From: Phreatobacter sp.
GTDB taxonomy: Bacteria > Pseudomonadota > Alphaproteobacteria > Rhizobiales > Phreatobacteraceae
Length of the DNA: 64,000 nt
Direction of reading: 5' to 3'
NCBI RefSeq assembly: GCF_030691135.1
Contig: NZ_JAUYFA010000039.1
Span: forward strand, 1-64,000
In this document: in pieces, positions 2,635 through 35,126 of the stretch
Layout: each line of letters opens with the position of its first letter
Position numbering within the stretch: position 1 is the first letter of the stretch
Position numbers and translations under genes: made by a program
Notes under the pieces: generated by a model
The model's database searches: none
Told to the model about the DNA's origin: nothing
The model's input: the letters and a program-made list of their open reading frames with translations, nothing else

Positions 2635-2666
2635 GACCTCCGGTCCCGGCGGCCTGGCAGGAGGCG

Positions 2667-15107: not shown

Positions 15108-17719
15108 TCAGCCGAGGGCGGCGATCAACGCCGTCGTCTCGGCGGCGGGGACGAGCCATGGTGCGCGGTTGTCCGGGATCGGTTCGGCCTCGATGGAGGC
15201 CGCGACCGCCGTCGCCGCATCGGGCCCGACCGGGCGGGAATAGACGAAACCCTGGACGGTATCGCAGCCGAGTTCGCGCAGCACGTCAAGTTCGGCGCGC
15301 TTCTCGGCACCCTCCGCCACGGTGGCGAGTCCGAGGCCACGGGAGAGGGCGATGATGCCGGCGAGGAGCTTGCGCTTGGCCGGATCACCGGCGATGCCGT
15401 CGACGAAGGAGCGGTCGACCTTCAGCCGGTGGAAGGGCAGCCGCGTCAGATAGCCGAGCGACGAGTAGCCCGAACCGAAGTCGTCGAGGGCGAGCTTGAC
15501 CCCGAGCCGCGACAGCGAGCAGAGCGTGCGGCTGACGCGCTCCTCGCTCTGGTCGACGAAGAGGCTCTCGGTCAGTTCGAGGCAGAGCAGCTCCGGTGGC
15601 AGGCCGGTCTCGGCCAGCACAGCGGCGACGGCCGTCTCGAAGTCCATGGCCCAGAACTGGGCCGGCGAGGCATTGACCGACATGGTGCGCTGCGGCAGGC
15701 CCTGGTCGAGCCAGGCCTTCGCCTGGCGGCAGGCCTCACGGAGGATCCACAGGCCGAGGTCGACGATGATGCCGGAGTTCTCCGCGACGGGGATGAACAC
15801 CGCCGGCGAGATCGGTCCGCGCTCGCGGTGGGTCCAGCGCAGCAGCGCTTCGAAGCCAATGACCCTGCCCGAGCTTATGCACACCTGCGGCTGGTAGACG
15901 GCGTGCAGCTCCTGTTCCTCGATCGCGTGGCGGAGGTCGCGGGCCAGCAGCAGACGCTGCTCTACTGCCGCGGCGAAGGCCGACTCGAACAGCATCGAGC
16001 GACCGCGACCCGCTTCCTTGCCCGTGTAGAGGGCGAGGTCGGCATGCCGCATGGCCTGGTCCGTCGAGGTCGCGTGCTCGGGCAGCATCGCCACGCCGAC
16101 CGTGGCGCCGACGAAGGCCTCGCCGCTCGACAGGTCGATCGGCCCGGACAGCGTATGGATCAGGTTGTCGGCGACGAGCCGGACATCCTCTTGCTGGTGG
16201 TCCCGCTCGATCAGCACCGCGAACTCGTCGCCACCCAGTCGCGCGATCAAGGCGGTACCGCCGAACTCCCGGCGCAGGATGGCCGCGACACGACAGAGGA
16301 GTTCGTCACCGGCAGCATGGCCGAAGGCGTCGTTGACCTCCTTGAACCGGTCGAGACCAACCAGGTAGAGCGTCGCGAAGCGACCTTCGAGCAGGGCCTT
16401 GCCGATGACCTTGGTCAGCGCCTGCTTGAACATGGCGCGATTGGCAAGGCCGGTCAGCGAATCCGCATAGGCGAGTTCCTCGAGCTGCCGCTGCGTCTGC
16501 TTGCGTTCTGTGACATCCTGGACGGTACCGACGAAGCCGACCACCTTGCCGCCGACCTCCTCGCCCTTGCAGGTGACGGCGAAGTCGCGGATGCGGCCAT
16601 CGGCACAGCACAGGCGCACGTCGCAGCTGTGTGCACCACCCTCCTTCAGCACCGCGCGCTGAACGTCCAGAAGCTTCTGCTGGTCCTCCGGCATGAACAG
16701 CGCCAGGACCGCCTCGTGGGAGCTGTCGAAGGTCGCGGGGTCGAAGCCGGTGACCGAGAAGAGCTCGTCGCTCCAGGTCAAGCCGGCATCGCCCTGGAGA
16801 TAGGACCAGGACCCCATGCGGCCGAGACGGTGGGCCTCGGCGAGTGCTGCCGACCGCTTCATCAACAGGCGTTCGGTCTCGCGCAACTCGGTGATGTCGG
16901 CGGTCGTGCCGCGGTAGCCGAGGAAGGTGCCGTCTGCATCGAACATCGGCTTGCCGCTGGTGCGGGCCCGACGGGGTCCGATCCGGGTGTTGACGGTATA
17001 GTCGAGATTGCGGAACGGCCTGTGGGCCTCCATCTCCCGCTGCACAGCCTCCAGTTCCGGGAGGGAGGAAACCGGGACGTCGAGGTCCCAGCGCCGCTTT
17101 CCGATGACCAGTCTGACGTCGATCGATCGTGTCGCGCTGCCCGCCTCGAATCGCTCGAAACGGTGCTCGGCATCGGTCTGCCAACACCAGTCTGTCGCGG
17201 TGTCGAGGAAATCCGCCAGCCTCTGTTCCGAGGCGGCGACCTGCTCCAACGCCTGGGTCTCGCTGGTCTCATCGGTGACGATGCCGATGATGCGCACGAT
17301 GGCACCGGACCCGTCGCGCTCGGCCTCGCCGTGGATTCGAAGCGAGAAGTCGCGCCCGTCGGGGTGGCGGCAGGTGACATCCACCACATAGGGCGTGCCG
17401 TCCGAAAGGCAGCGTTGCAGCGTTGCAGCGCTGCGGCGACACGCGCGGCACCGTCGCCATGATAACGCTCGCGAACCGTCGCGATGGTGACGAATCCGGC
17501 GGGCACGTCCATGAGGGCAGCGAGTTCCTCCGACATCCAGAAGGTGGTCGGATCGCGCGCCTCGATCACCCAATAGCCCATCCGGGCAATGGCCATGGCA
17601 CGGCTCGCCAGCATCGCGGGCTGCAGCAGTGGCCCTTCCAGGATTTCCGCAGCGGTCGGTAGCAGATGATGGGGGGCGGCGCTCGACAGAGTCACAATCC
17701 CGAACAAGACTGGAAGCAC
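15108..17719 (-). pseudogene. PAS-GGDEF-EAL protein, frameshifted by an 8-bp tandem duplication
   Basis: Relative of the neighbouring 17932-20553 gene: N-terminal PAS regions, then GGDEF, then EAL (c-di-GMP synthesis and breakdown). The N-terminal part reads from GTG 17719 in one frame to about 17425, and the rest reads in another. Removing one of two adjacent 8-base copies (17413-17420, 17421-17428) restores a single frame that aligns without gaps to the paralogue around the break. The EAL half keeps EALLRW, NASPAQF, LELTES, DDFGSG, KVDRSFV and AEGAE, so it looks catalytic. The GGDEF motif is present, but the first metal-binding Asp of the usual LIDLD block is Gly (VGLD, codon 16356-16358), and no RxxD inhibitory site precedes it. 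It may be a pseudogene, a phase-variable gene or a sequencing error; an internal start could still yield a GGDEF-EAL fragment. Confidence 0.8.
17409..17428. repeat. 8-bp direct tandem repeat causing the frameshift
   Basis: The plus strand reads GCAGCGTT twice followed by GCAG, i.e. 2.5 units. Deleting one unit leaves an uninterrupted reading frame. Such short tandem units change copy number by slipped-strand mispairing. Confidence 0.9.
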
Positions 17720-17931
17720 AATTGTTCCACATGACGTAGCGCAAAAGCGCTGAAGAAAAGGTAATCACATGCCAATAATGCCTTTGGCGGGGGCCGCCAT
17801 TTCGGCAGCCGACATGCCCGTCTACGGCATCGGCCGGGCCGCCTGTGTCGGCGACAGGAAGCGGCGCCTGCACCGCGCCTCGCGAACCATCCGGCGCAAA
17901 CACCCGAAAATGAGGCGGCTGAAGCCCCGCG

Positions 17932-20553
17932 TCAGCCCATCAGTGCGGCGACCGCCGGCAGGGTCCGCTCCAGCCGCACGGGGCGGCGTTGCCATTCGAC
18001 CAGCGGCGAACGCTCGATCGAATCGGCGACGACCGGGGCCATTTCCGGGGCCACAGGACGCGAATAGACATAGCCCTGGACAATGTCGCAGCCGAGTTCG
18101 CGGAGGACGTCCACCTCGGCCGGCCGCTCGGCCCCCTCGGCGACGATGGACATGCCGAGGCCGCGCGACAGGGCAATGATGCCGCCGAGGAGCTTGCGCT
18201 TTTCGGGTTGCGTCGAGACACCGTCGACGAAGGATCTGTCGACCTTCAGACGGTCGAACGGCAGGCGCGTGAGATAGCCGAGCGAGGAATAGCCGGAGCC
18301 GAAATCGTCGAGTGCCAGCCGCACGCCCAGGGCGGAGAGTGCGCCCAGCGTCCGGCTGATCTGGTGCTCGCTCTGGTCGACGAAGAGGCCCTCCGTCAGT
18401 TCCAGGCACAGGAGGTTAGGCGGCAGCCGCGTCTCGGCGAGCACGGCGGAGACAGCCGTCTCGAAATCCATGTTCCAGAACTGCGCCGGCGAGACGTTGA
18501 CCGCGATGGTGCGGGGCGGCAGTCCCTGGTCGAGCCAGTCGCGACCCTGGCGGCAGGCTTCCCGCAGGATCCACAGCCCGAGGTCGACGATGATGCCCGA
18601 ACTCTCGGCCACCGGGATGAACTCGGCGGGCGAGATCGCCCCACGTTCCCGATGGGTCCAGCGCAGCAGCGCCTCGAAGCCGACAACCCGGCCGGTCGCC
18701 AGCTCCACCTGCGGCTGATAGTGCGCGTGCAACTCGTTCTCCGCGATGGCATGACGCAGATCCCGCGCGAGGATCATCCGCTGTTCGACTGCATCCGCAT
18801 AGGCGGCCTCGAACACCATGCACCGGCCGCGGCCGGATTCCTTGGCCATGCAGAGGGCGAGGTCGGCGTGCCGCATCGCCAGTTCCGTCGTCGCGGCATC
18901 CTCGGGCAGCTTCGCGATACCGATCGTGGCACCGATGAAGGCTTCACCGTTGGTGAGGTCGACCGGTCCGGAGATCAGCGCGATGAGCTGGTCGGCCAGC
19001 ACCTTCATGTCGTCGTGTATCGTCGGACGCTCGATGAGCACGGCGAATTCGTCGCCCCCGAGCCTGGCGATGAAGGCCTCGGCGCCGAGTTCGTGGCGCA
19101 GCAGGCCGGCCACGCGACACAGAAGTTCGTCGCCGGCAGCATGGCCGAGGGAATCGTTGACCTCCTTGAACCGGTCGAGGTCGATGAGCAGCAGCGCAGC
19201 GAAGCGCTCCTCGAGCAGCGCGCGGCCGACCATGCCGGTCAGGGTCCGCTTGAACTGCGTGCGATTGGCGAGTCCCGTGAGGGGATCCGCAAACGCCAGT
19301 TCCTCCAGCTGATGCTGGGCGAGCTTGCGTTCGCTGATGTCCTGCACGAGGCCGACGACGCCGACGATATTCCCGTCCACGACTTCGGCCTTGCAGTTCA
19401 CGGCAAAATCGCCGACGTGCCCATCGGCACAACGGAACCTGAGGTCGGCATTGGCGGTACCGCCGGACTTCAGCACCTGTTTCTGCATGTCCTCGAGGCG
19501 CGCGGCATCCTCGGCGACGAAATGGGAGATGATGTTGGCGTGCGACATTTCGAGCGTCGCCGGATCATAGCCCGTGAGCGCATAGAGCTCCTCGCTCCAC
19601 GTGACCTCGTCGCTTCCCCGCCGGTAGTGCCAGGACCCCATCCGCCCCAGCCGGTGCGCTTCCGCGAGGGCCGCCGTGCGGCGGGCGAGAAGCTCCTCGG
19701 TCGCTTTCCTTTTGGTGACGTCGCTGGCGGTGCCGCGATAGCCCTGGAACGTGCCGTGCTCATCGAAGAAGGGCTTGCCGCTCGTGCGGATCGTCGCCCT
19801 GTCGCCGCTGGGGCTGACCAGCGAATAGGTGAAGGACCGAAACGGGCGATGCTCTTCCATATCGGCGCGATGGCGCGCCATGGCGTCGCGATTCTCCGGA
19901 ACGTAGGGCAGCTCCCACCGGGTGATGTGGCCTTCGGCGATGATCTGGATCGCCGTATTGACCTCGGCCGGGAGCAAATTGGGCAGTAGGCGGTGGTTCG
20001 CGTCCGTCTGCCAGCACCAGTCCGAGGCTGTGCTGATGAAATCGGCGAGGCGCTGCTCGCTCGCTGCAAAGGACCGCAGGACGGCCTGTTCCTCGGAAAT
20101 GTCACGGACGATTCCGGAAACGGCTGTGACGCGTCCTTTTGCGTCACGTTCAGCCTCGCCATGGATGGAAAAGTCGATGATCCGCCCGTCGGGATGGCGG
20201 TACTGACCCTGGACGCGGTACGGTAGCCCTTCGCTCCAGCACAGGAGGTGACCGCGATTCAGGTCGTCCGCGGCGATGCCGAGATAGCGGGCGCGCACGT
20301 CGGCGACGGAGATGATGCCGTCCACGGTGGTGACCCCGTACATGGCCGCGAGCTCTGGCGATATCCAAAGCGTCTTGCTGCGAGGTCCTGAAGACTGCCA
20401 ATAGCCCATGCTCGCGATGCCCATGGCGCGCCTGAGCAGGCCGGCCTCGCGTGCCGAAGATACGGAAGCCGGCGTCGTGCCGCCGTTCCGTACTGTCTTC
20501 TTGGTGCCAGCCATGTTGCGTGGACCTAACGTCATGTTGCGCGGATTGTCCAT
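17932..20553 (-). CDS. PAS-GGDEF-EAL bifunctional c-di-GMP signalling protein
   Basis: Predicted cytoplasmic sensor of 873 residues: three PAS/PAC regions (about 45-150, 165-285, 290-410), a GGDEF domain (about 425-585) and an EAL domain (about 600-850). The GGDEF domain has the metal-binding LIDLDRFKEVND and an intact IARLGGDEF, so diguanylate cyclase activity is plausible; the RxxD inhibitory site is absent. The EAL domain has EALLRW, NVSPAQF, LELTEG, DDFGSG, KVDRSFV and AEGAE, as expected for a c-di-GMP phosphodiesterase. The PAS regions suggest small-molecule, redox or light input. Start ATG 20553 is the longest; ATG 20532 and 20511 are alternatives, the last with AGG ten bases upstream. 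It is a tandem paralogue of the broken gene downstream. Confidence 0.9.
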   Translation of the reverse strand: MDNPRNMTLGPRNMAGTKKTVRNGGTTPASVSSAREAGLLRRAMGIASMGYWQSSGPRSKTLWISPELAAMYGVTTVDGIISVADVRARYLGIAADDLNRGHLLCWSEGLPYRVQGQYRHPDGRIIDFSIHGEAERDAKGRVTAVSGIVRDISEEQAVLRSFAASEQRLADFISTASDWCWQTDANHRLLPNLLPAEVNTAIQIIAEGHITRWELPYVPENRDAMARHRADMEEHRPFRSFTYSLVSPSGDRATIRTSGKPFFDEHGTFQGYRGTASDVTKRKATEELLARRTAALAEAHRLGRMGSWHYRRGSDEVTWSEELYALTGYDPATLEMSHANIISHFVAEDAARLEDMQKQVLKSGGTANADLRFRCADGHVGDFAVNCKAEVVDGNIVGVVGLVQDISERKLAQHQLEELAFADPLTGLANRTQFKRTLTGMVGRALLEERFAALLLIDLDRFKEVNDSLGHAAGDELLCRVAGLLRHELGAEAFIARLGGDEFAVLIERPTIHDDMKVLADQLIALISGPVDLTNGEAFIGATIGIAKLPEDAATTELAMRHADLALCMAKESGRGRCMVFEAAYADAVEQRMILARDLRHAIAENELHAHYQPQVELATGRVVGFEALLRWTHRERGAISPAEFIPVAESSGIIVDLGLWILREACRQGRDWLDQGLPPRTIAVNVSPAQFWNMDFETAVSAVLAETRLPPNLLCLELTEGLFVDQSEHQISRTLGALSALGVRLALDDFGSGYSSLGYLTRLPFDRLKVDRSFVDGVSTQPEKRKLLGGIIALSRGLGMSIVAEGAERPAEVDVLRELGCDIVQGYVYSRPVAPEMAPVVADSIERSPLVEWQRRPVRLERTLPAVAALMG

Positions 20554-33932: not shown

Positions 33933-35126
33933 ATGGCGGAAACGGCGAAACGGCGCGGTGGCACCGCGAACGGAACGACCCTGCGCGGCCTTCTGATCGG
34001 AGCGGCCGCCATAGCGCTGGCCGCCTGTTCGGGCGCCAATGTGCAGGGACCCGGCCCGACGGCGGGTCCGGGGCCGGTGACCGCCGCGCCGCCGGGTTCC
34101 ACCATCGGCACCGGTTCGGTCAAGATCGCGCTGCTGCTTCCCCTGTCGGCGGGCGGCGCCGCCGGCAACACCGCGGCCGTTCTGCGCAACGCCGCCGAAA
34201 TGGCGGTGGCCGAGTTCCAGGGGCCCGACATCACCATTCTCGTCAAGGACGACGGCGGCACCGCCGCGGGCGCCCAGGCCGCGGCCCAGGCGGCCATCCA
34301 GGAGGGCGCCGAGCTCGTTCTCGGACCGCTCCTGGCGGAATCCGTGCGCGGCGCGGCGGCCGTGGCGCGGCCGGCAGGGCGTCCGATGATCGCCTATTCC
34401 ACCGATACCAGCGTCGCCACGCGCGGCGTCTATCTGATGAGCTTCACGCCGCAGAATACGGTCGACCGCATCGTCCAGCACGCCACCCAGGCCGGCAAGC
34501 GGTCCTATGCCGCCTTCATCCCCGACTCGGCCTTCGGCCAGGTGGTGCAGGGCGCCTTCCAGGAGGCAGTGAGCAGGTCCGGCGGCCGCGTCGTCGCCAT
34601 CGAGAAGTTCCCGCTCGACCCCAGCGGCGTCACCGCCGCCGCCGCGCGCCTTTCCGGCATCGCCGGCCAGATCGATGCGATCTTCGTCCCCGACCCCTAT
34701 GACGGCGCCGCGATCCAGGCGCTCTCCACTGCCGGTATCGACACCCGCAGCGTCCAGGTTCTCGGTGTCGGTCCCTGGGTCGGCAATACCGCCGCCGCCC
34801 GGGCCGCCCCGACCGCCCTCTATGCGGCACCCGACGAGGCCGGCTTCCGCAGCTTCTCCGAGCGCTACCGGGCCCGTTTCGGCCAGGACCCGGCGCGCAT
34901 CGCCTCGCTGACCTACGATTCGGTCTCGCTGATCGCCGCCCTGGTGCGTACCCAGGGCTCGCAGCGCTTTTCCGAGACGATCCTGACCAATTCCTCCGGC
35001 TTCAACGGCGTCGACGGCCTGTTCCGCTTCCGGGCCGACGGCACGCCGCAGCGCGGGCTCGCCGTGCTGCAGGCCGGCGGGCGGGTCGTCAGCCCGGCGC
35101 CGCGCACCTTCACCGGCGGGTCGTAG
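33933..35126 (+). CDS. penicillin-binding protein activator (LppC/LpoA-like) lipoprotein
   Basis: A 397-residue lipoprotein: basic start, hydrophobic segment, and lipobox LAAC with the lipidated Cys32. A Pro/Gly-rich linker follows. The rest is a type 1 periplasmic-binding fold of the LppC family (KIALLLPLSAGG...; VLGPLLAESVRGAAAVA; IAYSTDTSVATRGVYLMSF). LpoA of E. coli has the same fold and activates PBP1A from the outer membrane, but alphaproteobacterial members lack its TPR part and the role is inferred. ATG 33933 has GGAGG nine bases upstream; ATG 33915 and GTG 33891 are alternatives. Its position divergent from rsmI-yraN is conserved in Proteobacteria. Confidence 0.88.
   Translation: MAETAKRRGGTANGTTLRGLLIGAAAIALAACSGANVQGPGPTAGPGPVTAAPPGSTIGTGSVKIALLLPLSAGGAAGNTAAVLRNAAEMAVAEFQGPDITILVKDDGGTAAGAQAAAQAAIQEGAELVLGPLLAESVRGAAAVARPAGRPMIAYSTDTSVATRGVYLMSFTPQNTVDRIVQHATQAGKRSYAAFIPDSAFGQVVQGAFQEAVSRSGGRVVAIEKFPLDPSGVTAAAARLSGIAGQIDAIFVPDPYDGAAIQALSTAGIDTRSVQVLGVGPWVGNTAAARAAPTALYAAPDEAGFRSFSERYRARFGQDPARIASLTYDSVSLIAALVRTQGSQRFSETILTNSSGFNGVDGLFRFRADGTPQRGLAVLQAGGRVVSPAPRTFTGGS

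Follow-up and report, generated by a model that had tools for sequence, protein, structure and literature searches.

A probable recent loss-of-function frameshift at an 8-bp tandem duplication in a PAS-GGDEF-EAL gene of Phreatobacter

Short tandem duplications that arise by replication slippage between direct repeats make frameshift pseudogenes, and direct repeats lying a few base pairs apart are a usual setting for such slippage. The gene described here resembles these pseudogenes in that a short unit is duplicated at a direct repeat and the frame is lost in one lineage, the gene being otherwise nearly intact; nothing in it is evidently different, and it is known here from one assembly. Contingency loci, in which the frame is likewise set by the number of repeat units within a coding sequence, are a second group for comparison. 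An excerpt of one article (PMC12501158) names slrC and swrA of B. subtilis, whose 8-adenine tracts act as coding-sequence switches. Low-copy repeats can vary as well: for promoter repeats of about 54-57 bp in M. tuberculosis, present in two or three copies, variation of the copy number is described in the accessible part of PMC12817950. Phase-variable c-di-GMP genes also exist, by other mechanisms. According to an excerpt of PMC11868660, these include pdcB and pdcC of C. difficile, which vary via invertible promoters, and an sfa-linked phosphodiesterase of E. coli, which is epigenetically switched. There, as at our locus, expression of a c-di-GMP enzyme is altered heritably at the locus itself, but by promoter inversion or epigenetic control, whereas our gene carries a single frameshift for which no reversibility is shown. 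Among the matches listed for open-licence titles and abstract openings, none dealt with a c-di-GMP gene switched by two 8-bp units.

The window, i.e., the whole stretch of DNA analysed, comprises 64 kb of a 178-kb contig from a draft genome of 4.22 Mb (116 contigs, 99.93% complete), which was placed in Phreatobacter (Hyphomicrobiales, Alphaproteobacteria). On its minus strand, a PAS-GGDEF-EAL gene runs from a probable GTG start at about 17695 (alternatives include GTG 17719 and ATG 17596) to a stop at 15108, and its frame changes at a tandem duplication (Table 1). The initial annotation had placed an exact 8-bp tandem duplication at 17409-17428; it is indeed present there and is slightly longer, the maximal exact period-8 run covering 22 bp, or 2.75 copies of GCAGCGTT on the plus strand, with 14 matching positions. 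The split of the gene into two frames at the repeat was likewise borne out, the lower part being open over 766 codons with no stop and the upper part being open in another frame. A homology-free contrast of GC3 over 180 bp on each side also chose different minus-strand frames left and right of the repeat; the choice was clear below it (0.40, with 0.20 for the runner-up frame) and narrow above it (0.20 versus 0.12). By itself, an exactly doubled 8-mer is not unusual, since 200 first-order Markov simulations gave 2.07 expected per 64 kb, compared with the two present in the window. A run of at least 12 matching positions was expected 0.03 times per 64 kb in the first-order Markov simulation, and the observed run has 14. 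The second exact period-8 duplication of the window, at 33939-33955, consists of GAAACGGC doubled plus one base and is at chance level.

Table 1. Features of the broken gene and its surroundings, and indels relative to two related genomes (window coordinates)
Feature	Position	Strand	Basis or setting
5' part, native frame: first PAS-like domain as far as its long helix	17429-17695	-	Orthologue alignment, orthologue fold
Out-of-frame run of the 5' frame to the first stop, about 180 unrelated residues	16862-17408	-	
3' part, other frame: remainder of first PAS, second PAS region, PAS_3, GGDEF, EAL	15108-17408	-	
Tandem duplication, period 8, site of frame change	17409-17430		Exact repeat, GC3, orthologue alignment
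Intact tandem paralogue, PAS-GGDEF-EAL, 873 aa	17932-20553	-	Pfam
Gly codon GGT at first Asp of DLDRFK, GGDEF domain	16356-16358	-	Homologue comparison
Conserved upstream element TTCAGCGCTTTTGCGCTACGT	17734-17754	-	Six orthologous loci, genome pattern search
1-bp indels vs G007	17897, 17929		Between the two GGDEF-EAL genes
1-bp indel vs G007	20632		HAD-like gene, ahead of its Pfam match and just before a likely ATG
1-bp indel vs G007	25171		First 15 codons of the longest ComM-like reading; Pfam match begins at residue 39
1-bp indel vs G007	25301		Just outside an MnhG-like gene
1-bp indel vs G007	28401		Between an Mrp-like subunit gene and the adjacent one
12-bp indel vs G009	596		Before an M23 peptidase gene
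29 bp missing from G009	2638-2666		Between two ORFs
Indels of 1, 3 and 1 bp vs G009	4124, 6068, 6136		Close to or past the ends of putative ORFs
Cancelling pair of 1-bp indels vs G009	8806, 8826		Before the start of the best Clp_N match, Clp-like gene

A comparison of the locus in relatives, as suggested by the initial annotation, was carried out across the genus with a query of 961 bp spanning the site, which was searched in 12 Phreatobacter genomes including our own. Near-full-length matches were obtained in five of the 11 other genomes, namely G007 (95%), G004 (84%), G009 (79%), G010 (75%), and G003 (70%). In the alignment, all five orthologues lack the 8-bp insertion, and all five genes are open over 826 to 884 codons, their intact frames suggesting that they are functional. 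The remaining six members of the genus revealed only more distant homologues, in which the spacing of the N- and C-terminal tblastn matches corresponds to an unbroken frame. In a search of 61 genomes, mostly from other families of the order, the only matches outside the genus were short (G037 and G045), and none of the 292 matching plasmid records reached 80% query coverage. The unaltered G007 orthologue reads YHGDGAARVAAALQRCLSDGTPYVVDVTCRHPDGR at the site, identical to the sequence deduced for the restored frame, which upholds the gapless match of 35 residues to the paralogue claimed beforehand; the paralogue in the window likewise has 35 residues between the same landmarks. This paralogue lies directly upstream of the broken gene on the same strand, has the same domains, and shares 62% identity with its 3' part.

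In the 3' part, PAS_3, GGDEF, and EAL were all found well above the Pfam cut-off (PF00990 with 128.7 bits, cut-off 23.8; PF00563 with 230 bits, cut-off 31.3), and the second PAS region matched PAS_4 just under it (22.6 vs 23.1 bits). The 5' part alone, with 89 codons that are 91% identical to G007, matched no Pfam family. On the PAS-GGDEF-EAL protein, the NCBIfam domain models TIGR00254 and TIGR00229 scored above cut-off, and the equivalog models listed all scored below it, DibA being the nearest. The gene thus has the domain order and the EAL domain of PAS-GGDEF-EAL proteins (PF00990, PF00563); the orthologues are intact, whereas in the window the gene is interrupted and the first Asp of DLDRFK is missing.

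Residues 1-150 of the G007 orthologue were modelled from a nine-sequence alignment, with a mean pLDDT of 84.6 and residues 1-17 below 50. The best matches of this model in the PDB were PAS, LOV, and sensory-box domains (best E 1.1e-7, query TM-score 0.60), and the predicted first domain of the orthologue is accordingly a PAS-like fold. The frame change falls at residues 90-93, inside the helix 82-96 of the model, and is followed there by strands 100-107, 113-124, and 130-139. This means that, with a break in the helix before the three C-terminal strands, the native product would consist of part of the PAS domain and about 180 unrelated residues up to a stop at 16862.

The probable explanation of these observations is a recent, private loss-of-function mutation in the Phreatobacter PAS-GGDEF-EAL gene via slippage at 6-bp direct repeats. 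Of the three readings offered beforehand, recent inactivation is the best supported, since the insertion is private, the five orthologues are open without the 8 bp, and the rest of the gene is conserved; an on/off switch found no support, and an assembly error became less likely. As in other frameshift pseudogenes, the frame is interrupted relative to the homologues, and the exact tandem copy is absent from the relatives. The minus strand at the site reads CGCTGCAA CGCTGCAA CGCTGC, and in the alignment, the first CGCTGC copy of G007 differs by one base. Before the event, the site would have held two CGCTGC 6-mers on the minus strand, 8 bp apart. Replication slippage, or a similar short-homology event, would then have copied the 8 bp between the 6-mer starts once more and shifted the frame, a mechanism that the anatomy of the repeat suggests. 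Translation from the native start would yield the first half of the first PAS domain and the out-of-frame residues, and the remainder with PAS, GGDEF, and EAL would no longer be joined to that start; the enzyme is therefore probably not made, or made weakly from other starts. As the intact tandem paralogue is adjacent, the loss may be buffered. All in all, the broken gene looks like an ordinary recent loss, a known kind of event. A single private pseudogene matters little beyond annotation, where a full-length product should not be credited to the genome of the window.

The state of the remaining sequence bears on the age of the break. Between the window and G007, the 766 codons of the 3' part gave a dS of 0.111, a dN of 0.021, and a dN/dS of 0.19, and other orthologue pairs ranged from 0.15 to 0.20. 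For the 89-codon 5' part, dN/dS was 0.40 against G007 and 0.28 to 0.42 against the other relatives, which indicates that this part is less constrained in general. Apart from the break, the gene has hardly suffered, its 3' part being free of stops and having a dN/dS of 0.19 against G007, which points to a recent break. With G004, G009, or G010 used for polarisation, 19-21 nonsynonymous and 28 synonymous changes fell on the window branch and 13-14 and 23-26, respectively, on the G007 branch (20:28 vs 14:26, Fisher p 0.66). The two differ at 34 residues of the 3' part; the change was placed on the window side for 17 of them and on that of G007 for 10 (p 0.24). Fifteen other homologues were compared for invariant positions, with at least 14 present at the site, and the window copy has private changes at three of these positions (A305T, D351G, and V580A in the numbering of the 766 residues), compared with none in G007 (Fisher p 0.27). 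The other 14 homologues have 0 to 15 such changes, many of them on longer branches. As the excess of substitutions is not significant and intact homologues also carry up to 15 private changes, decay is only hinted at.

One of the three changes, D351G, concerns the first Asp of DLDRFK in the GGDEF domain, a residue that is Asp in all 15 other homologues as well as in the five PDB GGDEF sequences shown (two of TpbB, one of a diguanylate cyclase, and two of a motility regulator). We take this position to be the metal ligand that corresponds to Asp327 of PleD. The window copy would then have an incomplete GGDEF metal-binding set, with the GGDEF motif itself kept. A change in this domain was also seen in the G007 paralogue (L032, 3838-6453), where Ala stands in place of the second Gly of the GGDEF motif, a position that is otherwise invariant (alignment position 393), and its cyclase site may be degenerate.

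The same picture would arise from an artefact of the assembly or its consensus, or from a minority variant that became fixed when a mixed sample was assembled, the organism itself having one unit. The draft state of the assembly with its 116 contigs would allow for this, and four close relatives (L037-L040) are all metagenome-assembled genomes, as the window genome may be too. The indels relative to two relatives argue against it. A global alignment with G007 over 16,264 bases revealed seven indels, six of them 1 bp long and the other being the 8-bp duplication, and an alignment with G009 over 11,824 bases revealed six, followed by seven in a further 8,363 bases. Only the 8 bp lie clearly inside a gene; the roughly 16 kb compared with G007 and roughly 20 kb compared with G009 gave no second case. 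This makes an assembly error less likely. Exact duplications of a period of 4-40 that is not a multiple of three, with at least 4 bp beyond the full second copy, were counted in 338,035 bases of our genome (the window and 274 kb in 14 stretches) and in 280,000 bases of G001, giving two and none, respectively. The other one, in L127 at 17006-17025, has a period of 7 with 2.86 copies of CGCTGGC and lies inside a putative ORF (16234-17202, plus strand). Since these 338 kb contain just one further duplication of this kind, the assembly does not abound in them, and the run of 22 bp is far shorter than usual sequencing reads. The lack of any other indel clearly inside a gene and the total of only two duplications speak for a genuine private mutation rather than for sequence errors at large, and sequencing noise of a general kind is made an unlikely cause by both surveys. 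A local artefact or a mixed sample is, in our estimate, unlikely.

If the allele is real, the locus might still give a functional, remodelled PAS-GGDEF-EAL protein from another start, with the first PAS domain lost or replaced, which we regard as quite improbable. From 17903, the 3' frame stays open across the repeat and has potential starts at ATG 17732, GTG 17387, GTG 17045, and ATG 17033, among others, with GGAGG 2 nt before GTG 17045; judged from the reading frame, a product with a scrambled first PAS could come from ATG 17732. An ATG matching 17732 occurs, however, in only two of the five orthologues (G007 and G009) and is out of frame there, so that nothing suggests a real start. The conservation of the 3' part (dN/dS 0.19) would suit a functional product, but the ratio spans the whole branch, which may mostly predate the break, and through the private change from Asp to Gly, the GGDEF domain is deprived of a conserved residue. 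Very unlikely, in our view, is a phase-variable slippage switch of c-di-GMP signalling, in which the gain or loss of one 8-bp unit would turn the gene off or on. Its minimal anatomy is present, as a gene with intact relatives carries an exact tandem repeat with a unit length not divisible by three, and slippage could in principle lose a unit again; the excerpts cited above for variable low-copy repeats and for phase-variable c-di-GMP genes speak for it as well. A contingency locus would be expected to hold a tract of many units that is retained and varies in length. Our locus has just 2.75 copies of a short unit, and none of the five aligned orthologues (G007, G004, G009, G010, and G003) has a multi-unit tract, on which ground a conserved tract as a switch was rejected; switching is left without support. 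The private change in the GGDEF active site also suits decay better, though it could predate the break and leaves EAL untouched. A young slippage switch, with the enzyme mostly off, on-cells regenerated, and the paralogue as a constant partner, has an even slimmer chance. Should mixed unit numbers be found in a clonal culture, the two-unit repeat would be a reversible c-di-GMP switch and would show how contingency loci begin.

Two minor observations concern the surroundings of the broken gene. Just upstream of it, all six orthologous loci in the alignment share the pattern TTCAGCGCTTTNNCGNNACGT, which has a single occurrence in the genome when up to one mismatch is allowed; the version in the window includes an inverted repeat (AGCGC-TTTT-GCGCT), and the element is possibly a promoter or an operator. 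Against L032 of G007, dS was 0.11 for the 3' part of the broken gene (15111-17408) and 0.46 for the adjacent paralogue (17935-20553), a contrast that suggests homologous recombination at one of the two genes.
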